NCBI RefSeq assembly: GCF_019880635.1 | Contig: NZ_JAINVX010000005.1 | Span: forward strand, 310,001-374,000 | Length of the DNA stretch: 64,000 nt | Reading direction: 5' to 3' | Origin: Hanstruepera marina | GTDB taxonomy: Bacteria; Bacteroidota; Bacteroidia; Flavobacteriales; Flavobacteriaceae | Shown here: piece after piece, positions 41,668 to 46,516 of the stretch | Layout of the letters: the number at the start of each line of letters is the position of its first letter | Numbering within the stretch: the first letter of the stretch is position 1 | Made by a program: the position numbers and the translations under genes | The notes under the pieces: generated by a model | What the model was told of the DNA's origin: nothing | The model's input: the letters and a program-made list of their open reading frames with translations, nothing else | The model's database searches: none

Positions 41668-42219
41668 TTGAAAAAACTAATTAGCAAATATAAGTCGGTC
41701 ATAAAATTTATTTTCAGTTTTTTATTGGTGTATTCTGTACTCACTATTACTTATAAATTCTATTTGCAGTTATCAACTGGTGAAAAATATTACCCAGATT
41801 ATATGACATATATTGTTGCTCAACAGAGTGCAGATTTATTGCATGATTTGGATTATAGGGCGCAGGTAATTCCACATCCAAATGAAGCCTCAATTAAGTT
41901 GATTATTAATGAAAAATATGTTGCGCGTGTCATAGAAGGATGTAACTCGGTAAGTGTTATAATTTTGTTTGTTTCATTTGTTATTGCTTTTTCTGGTCAT
42001 TTTAAAGTTACGGTTTTATATATTTTTGCAGGAAGTGTATTGATTTACATTGCTAATTTATTTCGAGTGGTAATCTTGTCTATTGGCTTATATCATTACC
42101 CATGGCGAAAAGACATTTTGCACACGGTTATTTTTCCTGGAATTATTTATGGAATGGTTTGTTTATTATGGGTATTTTGGGTCAATCGTTTTTCTAATAT
42201 AAAAAAGGTTAATGACTAA
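41668..42219 (+). CDS. xrtF: Exosortase family protein XrtF
   Basis: Inner-membrane transpeptidase-like protein that processes C-terminally tagged exported proteins in Flavobacteriia. The 183-residue, multi-helix protein has the exosortase triad C92 (IEGCNSVSV), R133 (ANLFRVVIL) and H152 (DILHTVIFPG). The start is TTG 41668 (MKKLISKYKS); no ATG lies at a suitable position, the first being residue 46 inside the family domain. It overlaps the next gene by eight bases, which encodes its usual partner. No substrate with a matching sorting tag was seen here. Confidence 0.9.
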   Translation: MKKLISKYKSVIKFIFSFLLVYSVLTITYKFYLQLSTGEKYYPDYMTYIVAQQSADLLHDLDYRAQVIPHPNEASIKLIINEKYVARVIEGCNSVSVIILFVSFVIAFSGHFKVTVLYIFAGSVLIYIANLFRVVILSIGLYHYPWRKDILHTVIFPGIIYGMVCLLWVFWVNRFSNIKKVND

Positions 42220-42640
42220 AGCTCTCAAATATATAAGTTTAGTCTTGCTCTTTGGACTGTTGATCTTAATACGTGTATTTGAGGAGCAATTATTCTACGA
42301 CCCATATTTGGCGTTTTTTAAAAATGACTATTTGTATATAGATTCACCTAGACAGGAAGTATTTAAACTAACATTATTTACAACGTTACGCTATGTTATG
42401 AATACTATAATTTCGCTCGGTATTTTGTTTGTTTTGTTTAAGGATTTAGGAGTGCTAAAATTTGCAACCCTTATTTATGTAATAGCTTATGTCACCCTTA
42501 TAACTTTGTTTTTGTATTTTGTAATTAACCCTAAACAATCTGACTATTATTTATTTTTTAATACGCGTAGATTCCTAATTCAACCTGTTATATTACTGCT
42601 CCTTATTCCAGCATTTTACTATCACCAGCAACGAGCTTAA
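42212..42640 (+). CDS. Exosortase F system-associated protein
   Basis: Small hydrophobic protein of 142 residues with four predicted membrane helices and an N-terminal YISLVLLFGLLILIRVFEEQLFYDPYLAFF segment (stretches 8-26 and on) typical of the XrtF partner family. It is always found next to xrtF as I know the family. It overlaps xrtF by eight bases. Function is unknown, probably an assembly or regulatory subunit. Confidence 0.82.
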   Translation: MTKALKYISLVLLFGLLILIRVFEEQLFYDPYLAFFKNDYLYIDSPRQEVFKLTLFTTLRYVMNTIISLGILFVLFKDLGVLKFATLIYVIAYVTLITLFLYFVINPKQSDYYLFFNTRRFLIQPVILLLLIPAFYYHQQRA

Positions 42641-42684: not shown

Positions 42685-42692
42685 TAAATTTG
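42685..42692 (+). promoter_or_regulatory. Candidate -7 box very close to the HYC_CC_PP start
   Basis: TAAATTTG matches TAnnTTTG exactly and ends seven bases before the ATG at 42700. Transcription would start at or next to the ATG, giving a leaderless or near-leaderless mRNA. No convincing -33 TTG is present. Confidence 0.5.
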
Positions 42693-42699
42693 CAATATA

Positions 42700-43110
42700 A
42701 TGAAAGACATAGTTCATAGAGTATTTTCGGTAGGCATGGCACTTTTAGTGTTGTTTTCAACGGTTTCTTTTACTGTTGAAAAACACTATTGTGGTGATGT
42801 TTTGGTAGATGTTTCTTTGTTTGCAGAAGTCCAAAAATGCGCTATGGAAGCTTATGAAATGGAGCAATCTTCAATAACTAAAAAAAGTTGTTGTAAAGAC
42901 ACGATTGATGTAGTTCAGGGACAGGATGAGCTTACAGTAAAGACCTTCGATGATCTTGAGTTTGAACAACAGGTTTTTCTTACAACTTTTTCATATTCTT
43001 ATTTAAACCTTTTTGAGGATTTACAGGAAAGGGAAATTTCTCACCAAGACTATTCCCCTCCCAACTTGGTTTACGACATACAGGTTCGTGACCAAGCCTT
43101 CTTAATTTGA
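42700..43110 (+). CDS. HYC_CC_PP family protein
   Basis: The 136-residue exported protein has a hydrophobic N-terminus (about 8-25) and the three family marks HYC (29-31), CC (64-65) and PP (120-121), plus C47 and H115. The spaced Cys and His residues suggest a metal-binding periplasmic protein. Function is not established. It heads the Cys-rich cassette that continues with the HMA-MauE protein, TonB receptor and a second HMA protein. Confidence 0.85.
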   Translation: MKDIVHRVFSVGMALLVLFSTVSFTVEKHYCGDVLVDVSLFAEVQKCAMEAYEMEQSSITKKSCCKDTIDVVQGQDELTVKTFDDLEFEQQVFLTTFSYSYLNLFEDLQEREISHQDYSPPNLVYDIQVRDQAFLI

Positions 43111-43114
43111 TTTT

Positions 43115-43158
43115 TTGAACAATTTTCGTGAAAACGGATAGAATAACTAATTGTTCAA
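43115..43158. repeat. 10-bp inverted repeat between the HYC and HMA-MauE genes
   Basis: TTGAACAATT (43115-43124) and AATTGTTCAA (43149-43158) are perfect inverted arms, separated by 24 bases, filling the gap between the two genes. It may be an mRNA hairpin or a regulator site for the metal cassette; no T run follows. Confidence 0.5.
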
Positions 43159-43177
43159 TCAATAAAATCAAATAAAA

Positions 43178-43906
43178 ATGACACATATATATACGGTTAC
43201 AGGTATGACCTGTAATAACTGTAGAGTAAAAGTTGAAAGTGCTCTACAACATGTTGCCAATATTGACACTGTTAAGGTGAATTTAGAAAATAGCGAAGCT
43301 ATAATTACCATGTCTCAACACATAGCAACTAAAACCTTGCAAGAGGCTTTATCTGACAAATATCAAATTTCAGAGAAACAGGAGATAAATGTATTTGCAT
43401 CTACTGTAAATCAAGAAGAAGAATCGGAGTTAAAACAATTATTTCCTTTGTTTTTAATTTTTGGCTACATCATTATTGCATCATTTCTGCTAAATAATAA
43501 TCCAATGGATTGGAGCAATTTTATGCTCGATTTTATGGGCTTGTTCTATATTGTTTTTAGCTTTTTTAAGCTATTGGATTTAAAGGGTTTCCCAGAATCA
43601 TTTAAAATGTATGATCCGTTGGCTAAAATATTTCCCGCTTATGGTTGGATATATCCTTTTGTGGAGGTAGTGCTAGGGTTGATGTTTTTCATGCGTTTTC
43701 AAATTCTTTTGGCATTAGTAATCACATTGGTGATTTTGGGAATTACAACTATTGGTGTAACAAAAACATTATTGGATAAAAAGAGTATTCAATGCGCATG
43801 TTTGGGAACTGCTTTAAAACTTCCGATGACCAAGGCCACATTTATAGAGAATACTGTCATGATAGTTATGGCGATTATAATGATATTTAAAACCTACTAC
43901 TCATGA
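43178..43906 (+). CDS. HMA domain fused to MauE/DoxX-like membrane domain
   Basis: A 242-residue fusion. Residues 1-68 are a ferredoxin-like heavy-metal-associated domain with the metal-binding loop GMTCNNC (C12, C15). Residues about 85-240 are a four-helix membrane domain of the MauE/DoxX type, with IQCACLG near the end. The HMA domain binds Cu(I) or Zn(II) in known proteins. The fusion suggests metal handover at, or redox work in, the inner membrane. It overlaps the TonB receptor gene by four bases. Confidence 0.85.
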   Translation: MTHIYTVTGMTCNNCRVKVESALQHVANIDTVKVNLENSEAIITMSQHIATKTLQEALSDKYQISEKQEINVFASTVNQEEESELKQLFPLFLIFGYIIIASFLLNNNPMDWSNFMLDFMGLFYIVFSFFKLLDLKGFPESFKMYDPLAKIFPAYGWIYPFVEVVLGLMFFMRFQILLALVITLVILGITTIGVTKTLLDKKSIQCACLGTALKLPMTKATFIENTVMIVMAIIMIFKTYYS

Positions 43907-46143
43907 GGACGTTTTTGTTATTGATAATTATGTTACCTGGAATGCTTTTTTCTCAAGAAGAATTGCAAGGAACCGTTTTTGACAAAAACGATTCAAATCA
44001 AACAATTCCATTACCAGGCGCAAATGTATATTGGTTAAATTCCGAAGTGGGTGATGTTACTGATTTTAACGGGAAATTCACTGTTCCGTATAGTTCGGAA
44101 TATAAAAAATTGATAATTAGCTATGTTGGTTATAAAACCGATACCTTAACTATAAGTTCAGCTAAATCAATTGAACACTTTTTAGAACCCACAAGTAATT
44201 TAGATGAAGTGGTTGTGACTTCTAGAAAGCAAGCAACGGCAAAATCGTATTTGCAAGCGCAGAATGTAATAATGGTTAGCAGTGATGAGTTATTGAAGGC
44301 TGCTTGCTGTAACTTGTCAGAAAGCTTTGAAACCAACCCTTCAATTGATGTTAATTTTGCTGATGCCTTAACAGGAACCCGACAAATTAAAATGTTGGGG
44401 TTGACGAGTCCGTATATTTTAATTACAACTGAAAATATTCCATCTATTAGAGGAGCTTCGCAAGCTTTTGGATTGAGTTTTATACCAGGAACCTGGGTAG
44501 AGAGTATTCAAATAACCAAAGGCTCTGGTAGTGTTGTAAATGGTTTTGAAAGTATTGCTGGACAAATAAATACCGAATTGGTTAAACCTTTAACCGATGA
44601 TAAACTGTTTGTAAACTTATATGGCGCAAGTAGCCAGCGTGTGGAATTAAACACACATTTTAATACTAAAGTTAGTGATAAGTGGAGTACAGGTTTGTAC
44701 CTGCATGGAAATTATCATAACAAGCGACACGATGTTAATAACGATGGTTTTATGGATATGCCTTTGTACGATCAAGTAAATGTTATGAACCGTTGGCAAT
44801 ATACTAATCCAGAAAAGGGTTTGGTCAGTTTTATAAACTTAAAATACCTGTCAGATAACAAGTTGGCGGGTCAAGTGGATTATAATCCTGATACCGATAA
44901 GTTTACAACAAACTCCTGGGGAAGTGAAATAAATACCAAGCGCTACGAGTTGTCTGCTAAATTTGGTTATGTAAACCCAGAAATACCTTATCAAAGTTTG
45001 GGCGTTCAAACCGCTTTTAGTAGCCATAAACAAGATTCGTATTTTGGCTTTAATATATACGATATTAGGCACAACAGCTTGTATACTAATGTAGTGTATA
45101 ATTCAATTATTAGCGATTCGCGTCATAAAATAAAAACAGGCGTAAGTTATACTTACGACCATTATGATGAGTTGGTTAATACAGCAGATTATGAACGCAC
45201 GGAGACCTCAATAGGTGGTTTTTTTGAGTACAATTATGATAATTTAGATAAGTTAAACTTGACCGCAGGAGTTAGGGTGGATCAACATAATTTACTCGGT
45301 TTTTTTGTAACTCCCAGATTGCATTTAAGATATACCCCTTGGGAAAAATCAGCTTTTAGAGCATCTATAGGAAGAGGTAAACGAAGTGCTAATATTTTTG
45401 CAGAAAATCAAAAACTATTTTCAACTTCTAGACAGATTAATATTTTAAGCTCTGGAGGAGATATTTATGGTTTAGATCCAGAAATAGCTTGGAACTATGG
45501 AGTTTCGTTTTTACAAGGGTTTAACTTGTTTAATCGGAAGGGTGATGTAACATTAGACTTTTATAGAACCGATTTTACAAATCAAATAGTAGTTGATTAT
45601 GAAAACCCATTAGAAGTAAACTTTTATAACCTTCAAGGGAAAAGCTTCGCTAATAGTTTTCAAACCGAAGTTAACTATAATGTTTTCGAACGGTTTGATT
45701 TGCGATTAGCCTATAAATACTATAATGTACAGACAGAATATCTGTCAGGACAGTTGGAAAATCCTTTAACCCCAAAGCATCGCTTTTTTGCTAATGCAGC
45801 CTATGAAACCCACTTAAAGGAAGTCGGGTCTGGCCACTGGAAATTTGATGCTACTTTTAATTGGTTAAGCAAGCAACGTTTTTCATCAACGGCTAATAAC
45901 CCCCAGCAATATCAGTTGCCAGAATATTCGCCAACTGTTGCTACGTTGAATGCGCAAATAACCAAAGTGTTTTCTCCTAAATTTGAAGTATATTTAGGAG
46001 GTGAGAATATTACTAATGTTAGACAGAATAATCCAGTAATGTCTGCAGATAATCCATTTGAATCAAATTTTGATACAACCTTTGTGTATGGTCCAGTTTT
46101 TGGAAGTATGTATTATGCTGGATTACGATTTAAAATAAATTAA
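43903..46143 (+). CDS. TonB-dependent receptor with carboxypeptidase-like domain
   Basis: Outer-membrane receptor of 746 residues. Signal peptide (to about residue 17), a carboxypeptidase regulatory-like beta-domain (about 20-95), a plug (about 115-230) and a 22-strand-type barrel ending GLRFKIN. The plug starts with an unusual Cys pair, C135-C136 (LLKAACCNLSE), before TGTRQIKMLG. Because its neighbours are HMA and HYC_CC_PP proteins, I infer uptake of a metal, probably copper, or a metal complex. It overlaps the HMA-MauE gene by four bases. No SusD partner is adjacent, which argues against glycan uptake. Confidence 0.87.
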   Translation: MRTFLLLIIMLPGMLFSQEELQGTVFDKNDSNQTIPLPGANVYWLNSEVGDVTDFNGKFTVPYSSEYKKLIISYVGYKTDTLTISSAKSIEHFLEPTSNLDEVVVTSRKQATAKSYLQAQNVIMVSSDELLKAACCNLSESFETNPSIDVNFADALTGTRQIKMLGLTSPYILITTENIPSIRGASQAFGLSFIPGTWVESIQITKGSGSVVNGFESIAGQINTELVKPLTDDKLFVNLYGASSQRVELNTHFNTKVSDKWSTGLYLHGNYHNKRHDVNNDGFMDMPLYDQVNVMNRWQYTNPEKGLVSFINLKYLSDNKLAGQVDYNPDTDKFTTNSWGSEINTKRYELSAKFGYVNPEIPYQSLGVQTAFSSHKQDSYFGFNIYDIRHNSLYTNVVYNSIISDSRHKIKTGVSYTYDHYDELVNTADYERTETSIGGFFEYNYDNLDKLNLTAGVRVDQHNLLGFFVTPRLHLRYTPWEKSAFRASIGRGKRSANIFAENQKLFSTSRQINILSSGGDIYGLDPEIAWNYGVSFLQGFNLFNRKGDVTLDFYRTDFTNQIVVDYENPLEVNFYNLQGKSFANSFQTEVNYNVFERFDLRLAYKYYNVQTEYLSGQLENPLTPKHRFFANAAYETHLKEVGSGHWKFDATFNWLSKQRFSSTANNPQQYQLPEYSPTVATLNAQITKVFSPKFEVYLGGENITNVRQNNPVMSADNPFESNFDTTFVYGPVFGSMYYAGLRFKIN

Positions 46144-46162
46144 AAACTTAAAAAATAAAAAG

Positions 46163-46516
46163 ATGAAAAAATTAATAGTTGTATTGTTCGTGTTTTTTGG
46201 CGCATTAAGCTTCGCGCAAAACAAAAATGCAAAGGCTAGTATGGAAGTTGATGGTGTTTGTAATATGTGTAAAGAACGAATTGAAAAAGCATGTATTAAA
46301 ACAAAAGGCGTAAAATCTGCCGTATGGAATGTTGAAACTCATGAATTAAAATTAATTTATGATGAGCGCAAAACAAATCTGAAAACAATAACAGAAAACA
46401 TTGTTGCCGTAGGTCATGATACTAAAGAATTAAAAGCAACAGATGAAGCCTATAATTCTGTTCATGACTGTTGTAGGTATAGAGATGAAGAGGTTCAAGA
46501 TGATCATAAAAAATAA
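46163..46516 (+). CDS. Periplasmic heavy-metal-associated (HMA) protein
   Basis: The 117-residue protein has a signal peptide (ending at SFAQ, residue 19) and one HMA domain with GVCNMC (C33, C36). The C-terminal HDCC (101-104) adds a second potential site. It is a likely soluble metallochaperone between the TonB receptor and the inner membrane. It starts 19 bases after the receptor stop in the same direction. Confidence 0.85.
   Translation: MKKLIVVLFVFFGALSFAQNKNAKASMEVDGVCNMCKERIEKACIKTKGVKSAVWNVETHELKLIYDERKTNLKTITENIVAVGHDTKELKATDEAYNSVHDCCRYRDEEVQDDHKK

Follow-up and report, generated by a model that had tools for sequence, protein, structure and literature searches.

A cassette of four adjacent genes in Hanstruepera marina, each encoding a protein with cysteine pairs, is probably a TonB-receptor operon linked to copper and headed by a gene, HYC_CC_PP, whose product would act in cis as a leader-peptide switch. 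The cassette lies in a 64,000-nt window (positions 310,001-374,000 of contig NZ_JAINVX010000005.1) of a 3.28 Mb genome, and it encodes, in order, the HYC_CC_PP protein, a fusion of an HMA domain to a MauE-type membrane domain (HMA-MauE), a TonB-dependent receptor and a periplasmic HMA protein. The original prediction had placed these open reading frames (ORFs), their domains and their Cys pairs correctly, and had read the four proteins as a complete outer-to-inner-membrane metal route. Our different reading of the first gene draws on features of the sequence, namely gene order, conserved Cys residues, a predicted mRNA stem, stop-codon bias, spacing, promoter position and recurrence before efflux pumps; arrest, metal sensing, copper as the metal, regulatory sign and transport are the parts that we infer.

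HYC_CC_PP matches its family model with 133.9 bits, above the curated threshold of 28 bits, and has a hydrophobic N-terminus, an HYC motif at residues 29-31 (C31), a Cys pair (CC) at 64-65, a Pro pair (PP) at 120-121 and a tail that ends in FLI followed by a UGA stop. A literature search by the family name found no paper. In 62 of 74 named loci this protein, or a look-alike that is small, Cys-rich and has a C-terminal PP, stands immediately before the cassette, and just 4 of the 377 other small ORFs in the named loci fit the Cys/PP description. Leaders precede cassettes in several families of the order; in families other than that of H. marina they are barely similar to HYC_CC_PP in sequence but keep the same plan (short, hydrophobic at the N-terminus, Cys-rich, PP near the end). 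HYC_CC_PP also lies directly before a CzcA/CusA-type pump and TolC, often followed by CopA, in at least 11 fetched loci besides one in H. marina itself. Because the gene precedes import-type receptors and efflux pumps alike, it is more likely a regulator than a component of a route, and the earlier view of it as a link in that route gives way both to this distribution and to the marks of a cis-regulatory leader that it bears. The second HYC_CC_PP of H. marina (contig C4, L003:6524-14517) stands before CzcA/CusA, TolC and CopA genes and has an equivalent stop-to-start stem of -16.8 kcal/mol. On the same contig (L003:345-2898), another small Cys-rich exported ORF, ending in NIWQPPQVIS, precedes a second TonB receptor, with genes for a Fur-like regulator, an HMA membrane protein and a Zn/Cd-type ATPase behind it; the leader plan is the same, perhaps for another metal.

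The end of the leader gene is built into a predicted mRNA stem ahead of HMA-MauE. Positions 43105-43124 pair with 43149-43158 and 43164-43173 to give 20 bp with one bulge, at -17.3 kcal/mol for the segment 43105-43177 (z-score -4.6, with 0 of 200 shuffles as good, and -2.6 when flanks are included). A stop-to-start stem of -10 kcal/mol or lower is predicted in 76 of 100 loci, reaching into the stop codon in 74 of the 76 and ending no more than 20 nt from the next start in 75 (median 4). Covariation was assessed by comparing cognate arms with arms swapped between loci, using 193 ordinary neighbouring gene pairs as controls: the mean z is -1.91 for the leaders versus -0.27 for the controls, and z falls below -2 in 52% versus 11%. 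The Mann-Whitney p-value of 2e-19 is too optimistic, the loci being related; after thinning to 51 leaders with less than 45% identity, the mean z is -1.90, with 49% below -2. In L101-L107, from another family of the order, the leader tails read WQPPKLG or something close to it, most stops are UAA and the PP is 2-3 residues from the end; this tail class differs from FLI-UGA, yet several of these loci have stop-to-start stems. An intrinsic terminator was ruled out for the window hairpin, because AAAA-ATG, rather than a T run, comes after its 3′ arm, and an Rfam search of 41-47.5 kb gave sub-threshold chance matches only.

The stop codon and its distance from the CC are also constrained. UGA ends 55 of 67 FLI-type leaders (82%) versus 31 of 530 long ORFs (6%), the background being ORFs of at least 250 amino acids (aa) in 80 named loci. 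The leader tail is conserved up to its last residue, the final Ile column itself counting for nothing since the alignment was selected for it. Across 71 leaders the CC-to-stop distance is 72.6 ± 0.9 residues, while other spacings are more variable (HYC-to-CC ± 3.9, CC-to-PP ± 1.8 and PP-to-stop ± 1.4 residues); CC-to-PP and PP-to-stop partly compensate, with r = -0.56 after thinning, when CC-to-stop is 72.9 ± 1.8. We read the fixed length as a putative tether from the metal site to a ribosome at the stop codon. Upstream, 49 of 67 leaders have a TAnnTTTG box within 70 nt, in most cases beginning 12-16 nt ahead of the ATG; among inner cassette genes the count is 7 of 170, and among other ORFs 76 of 436. 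The position of the box suggests that the operon starts at the leader, perhaps as a leaderless message. Directly upstream in the window, as in many Flavobacteriaceae relatives, are genes for exosortase XrtF and a partner membrane protein (41668-42640), and the promoter box before the leader argues that this pair is a separate unit.

Table 1. Features of the cassette, in positions of the window.
Feature	Position	Strand	Basis
-7-type promoter box TAAATTTG	42685..42692	+	match to Bacteroidota TAnnTTTG; 7 nt upstream of leader ATG
HYC_CC_PP leader gene, 136 aa	42700..43110	+	NCBIfam NF047658 4.7e-39; tail conservation; spacing
Stem 5′ arm ATTTGATTTTTTGAACAATT	43105..43124	+	last Ile codon, UGA and 14 nt after; RNA fold
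Stem 3′ arm AATTGTTCAA, 5-nt bulge, AAAATCAAAT	43149..43173	+	RNA fold; end 4 nt before HMA-MauE start codon
HMA-MauE fusion	43178..43906	+	Pfam HMA 3.4e-9, MauE 5.5e-17; conservation; AlphaFold2 mean predicted local distance difference test (pLDDT) 84
TonB-dependent receptor	43903..46143	+	Pfam CarbopepD_reg_2, Plug, barrel; plug motif KAACCNLSESFETN, C135-C136
Periplasmic HMA protein	46163..46516	+	Pfam HMA 4.4e-8; C33/C36, C103-C104, H85

In the mechanism that we propose, a ribosome would translate HYC_CC_PP while Sec takes up the N-terminus of the nascent chain. Once the ribosome reaches the UGA, the tail (PP...FLI) would occupy the exit tunnel and the CC, 72-73 residues back, would be outside the membrane and able to meet metal, so that metal binding, or its absence, would set how long the ribosome dwells at the stop. 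A dwelling ribosome would block pairing of the 5′ arm and leave the HMA-MauE start region free for translation, and its departure would let the stem close over that region. The HMA-MauE and receptor genes overlap by 4 nt (ATGA, 43903-43906) and the HMA protein gene starts 19 nt past the receptor end; translation of the receptor would be coupled through the overlap, with the HMA gene next in line. The receptor would then bring copper, probably as a chelate, through the outer membrane; the MerP/CopZ-like periplasmic HMA protein would bind it, and HMA-MauE, present here and not in most relatives, would handle Cu(I) at the inner membrane.

The constant core of the cassette is the receptor with the periplasmic HMA protein, in either order, and the view of these two as a conserved metal unit is supported. 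In the HMA protein, C33, C36, C103 and C104 are conserved across 105 sequences. A lack of conservation of the plug CC had been set beforehand as a point of refutation, which fails: the motif KAACCNLSESFETN with its CC occurs in 41 of 41 aligned receptor orthologues and is absent only from 2 distant paralogues; the pair is also invariant in two more receptor alignments (25 and 37 sequences). Of 146 genomes searched in the order, 99 have an orthologue; with an alignment as query, the count for the phylum is 81 of 247, the nearest receptor relatives being in Flavivirga, Formosa, Tamlana, Winogradskyella and others. The plug CC in KAACCNLSESFETN is the mark of a TonB-receptor family widespread in Bacteroidota. 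The OprC/NosA model TIGR01778 appears neither in the profile matches of the window receptor nor in the genome hits at the receptor position, and a sequence search of the PDB with the receptor returned just general siderophore receptors and carboxypeptidase-like domains. In an AlphaFold2 model the barrel is sound, and the plug has a pLDDT of about 35-55, too low to place the CC on the periplasmic or the channel side. CrtA and OprC/NosA are likewise outer-membrane TonB receptors linked to copper. The CrtA family has conserved substrate-site residues, including an invariant His, and CrtA is without conserved Cys (PMC12914433), while the window receptor carries the conserved plug CC, a comparison made with the published description of CrtA.

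HMA-MauE has C12/C15 in its HMA domain and a CAC (C206/C208) in its membrane domain, all four residues being present in 28 of 28 sequences, together with five invariant Met (M116, M120, M217, M228 and M231); by eye, those positions are occupied by other residues in the ordinary MauE protein of H. marina. The match to MauE (PF07291) scores 62.7 bits against a Pfam gathering score of 27 bits, and a Foldseek search with HMA-MauE matched the HMA domain alone, with no convincing match for the membrane part. A Met-lined path, a cytosolic CxC and an HMA domain would suit Cu(I). MerP-MerT mercury uptake similarly pairs a periplasmic HMA protein with an HMA-linked inner-membrane protein and no ATPase; HMA-MauE differs from MerT in its MauE-like membrane domain with conserved Met and CxC, and no mer genes were seen here. 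The gene is an optional insert. In the window and some close relatives it separates leader and receptor; in the Muricauda/Allomuricauda/Flagellimonas group it comes after the HMA gene, and elsewhere it adjoins efflux islands. Its absence from most receptor loci speaks against a complete outer-to-inner-membrane route. The statement that the cassette has no ATPase holds for the window and fails for relatives, five of which (L092, L142, L144, L153 and L161) carry, in the slot ahead of the receptor, a CopA-type ATPase with CPC. In several relatives (L072:5509-6075 and similar loci), AraC-type regulators adjoin leaders or HMA-MauE, and one of these, with an N-terminal HMA-like stretch (KNMVCDRC), is a possible metal-responsive transcription factor.

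Two nascent exported copper sensors of opposite sign have been described, CutF (PMC9973294) and CruR (PMC9426467). CutF, the DUF2946-like leader of Rhodobacter capsulatus cutFOG, is a small exported Cys protein with a C-terminal PP, lies directly before a copper gene and acts through a stem over the next start (PMC9973294); HYC_CC_PP appears to share this plan, with a predicted stem. CutF has CxxxC, whereas HYC_CC_PP has HYC and CC, a PP 15 residues before the stop, an FLI-UGA tail and its stop codon inside the stem. Compared with the published rules for CutF-like leaders, HYC_CC_PP is within the size limit (136 aa, limit <150) and has a same-strand gene 67 nt downstream (limit ≤1000 nt), its predicted stem covers the next start region (4 nt before the ATG, z -4.6), and its N-terminus is hydrophobic by direct inspection, where the rule calls for a Sec signal peptide; the PP (120-121, with 15 residues after it) just misses the limit of ≤15 residues from the C-terminus. 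Neither the leader nor the rest of the genome matches DUF2946 (PF11162), the Pfam family of CruR. CruR, the leader of the CrtA/BfrG receptor in Bordetella pertussis, likewise has a Cys metal site in an ORF ahead of a copper TonB-receptor operon, and it works through RAPP arrest and Rho (PMC9426467). In CruR a CXXC is followed after 45 residues by the arresting RAPP and then by a 162-nt gap, whereas the present leader has SPP, 55-56 residues from CC to PP, a 67-nt gap and a strong predicted stem. Finally, the stop-codon arrest peptides of Bacteroidota (PMC10987492) are leaders with a conserved C-terminal end that stall with the stop codon in the A site; they precede Sec genes and end in Pro, whereas HYC_CC_PP has Cys metal sites and ends in Ile. 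HYC_CC_PP leaders resemble the CutF/CruR nascent-chain sensors yet differ from them in having no DUF2946, no RAPP and a putative arrest at the stop codon. The survey of CutF had already counted many Bacteroidota and TonB neighbours (PMC9973294); the idea of copper-sensing leaders in this phylum is not new, and the present leaders would combine traits of CutF, CruR and stop-codon arrest peptides.

Several points weigh against a leader switch. Twelve of the 74 loci have no recognised leader, and the stem is weak in roughly a quarter of loci. Pairing with UCA in the stem accounts for part of the UGA bias, as 53 of the 73 UGA stops are paired, although UGA still ends 20 of 36 leaders whose stop is unpaired. 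A folded domain could equally fix the CC-to-stop length, and the arrest site is uncertain, as the PP lies 15 residues before the stop and not at the end as in CruR. Moreover, receptor-type and efflux-type operons share one stem geometry, yet they should respond oppositely to copper if the receptor imports. We put forward more tentatively, as a real possibility, that Bacteroidota hold a large unrecognised class of metal-sensing leaders that keep the ribosome at the stop codon, with UGA and the last codon in the lock arm, the CC on a tether of about 72 residues and one switch for copper receptors and efflux pumps.

Within the leader model the sign may go either way, as CutF-like action would mean that copper switches the receptor operon on and CruR-like action that it switches the operon off. 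It is possible, if somewhat doubtful, that copper excess turns the operon on, as CutF does for CutO, with the receptor and HMA protein serving defence or redistribution and not import under scarcity. Efflux operons of the CusA/CzcA-TolC-CopA type are headed by the same family of leader with the same stem geometry, which would agree with this, as would the CopA inserted between leader and receptor in relatives, but an import role is expected of a TonB receptor. To our knowledge, TonB receptors are importers in all known cases. CruR, which stands ahead of a copper receptor, also works in the opposite way (PMC9426467).

Copper was proposed originally and is still the likeliest metal, given CopA with CPC in relatives' operons, the HMA domains and the invariant membrane Met of HMA-MauE. 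A different thiophilic metal, such as zinc, is in our view unlikely. Zn, Cd and Hg are also bound by HMA domains and CC pairs, and the second HYC_CC_PP of the genome is just downstream of a Zn/Cd-type ATPase gene, but a non-copper metal fits poorly with CopA in the receptor operon of five relatives, with the Met-rich membrane positions of HMA-MauE and with CopA in the efflux islands.

The stem could also serve plain translational coupling, tying HMA-MauE and receptor translation to that of the leader with no metal sensing and no arrest, and its geometry alone would yield coupling whether or not the ribosome pauses. This is improbable, as coupling does not account for why HYC and CC are invariant, why the tail is conserved as far as the stop, why the CC-to-stop length is fixed, why UGA is enriched beyond pairing or why leaders sit ahead of metal operons.

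Quite improbable, too, is the original model of HYC_CC_PP as a stable periplasmic metal-binding protein in a complete copper route feeding respiratory oxidases. Conserved Cys pairs in all four proteins favour it, and a heme-copper oxidase match tends to accompany the receptor outside the endosymbiont family (97/113 genomes versus 2/6, p = 0.007), an association that is weak, not cbb3-specific and dependent on 6 oxidase-negative genomes, some probably incomplete. The model is at odds with HYC_CC_PP heading efflux operons, with leader conservation extending into the stop codon and gating stem, and with HMA-MauE being absent from most receptor loci. A tight cbb3 link was rejected, since the receptor occurs in families with only distant oxidase-I matches and endosymbionts have ccoN without the receptor. 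The cassette itself is unlinked to oxidase genes, and another, OprC-like receptor (TIGR01778 136 bits, below the cut-off; motif CTDKM, of the form CxxxM) lies near the cbb3 and nos genes of the genome. Its cluster (contig C9, L245 and L246) includes nosL, nosD, a copper nitrite reductase-like protein with cytochrome c, and Sco, with ccoNO, ccoP, ccoG and a P-type ATPase about 20 kb away. This OprC-like receptor is a better candidate than the cassette for respiratory copper.

RAPP/RGPP leaders before copper genes have been reported absent from Bacteroidota (PMC12992588), and the loci described here suggest that this role is filled there by a different motif and a stop codon built into an mRNA lock. 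A leader function would account for the control of a TonB-receptor family that is phylum-wide and uncharacterised, and would give the HYC_CC_PP family of unknown proteins a function. It would also point to a copper route that genome surveys have overlooked, made up of a plug-CC receptor, an HMA protein and a Met-rich HMA-MauE.

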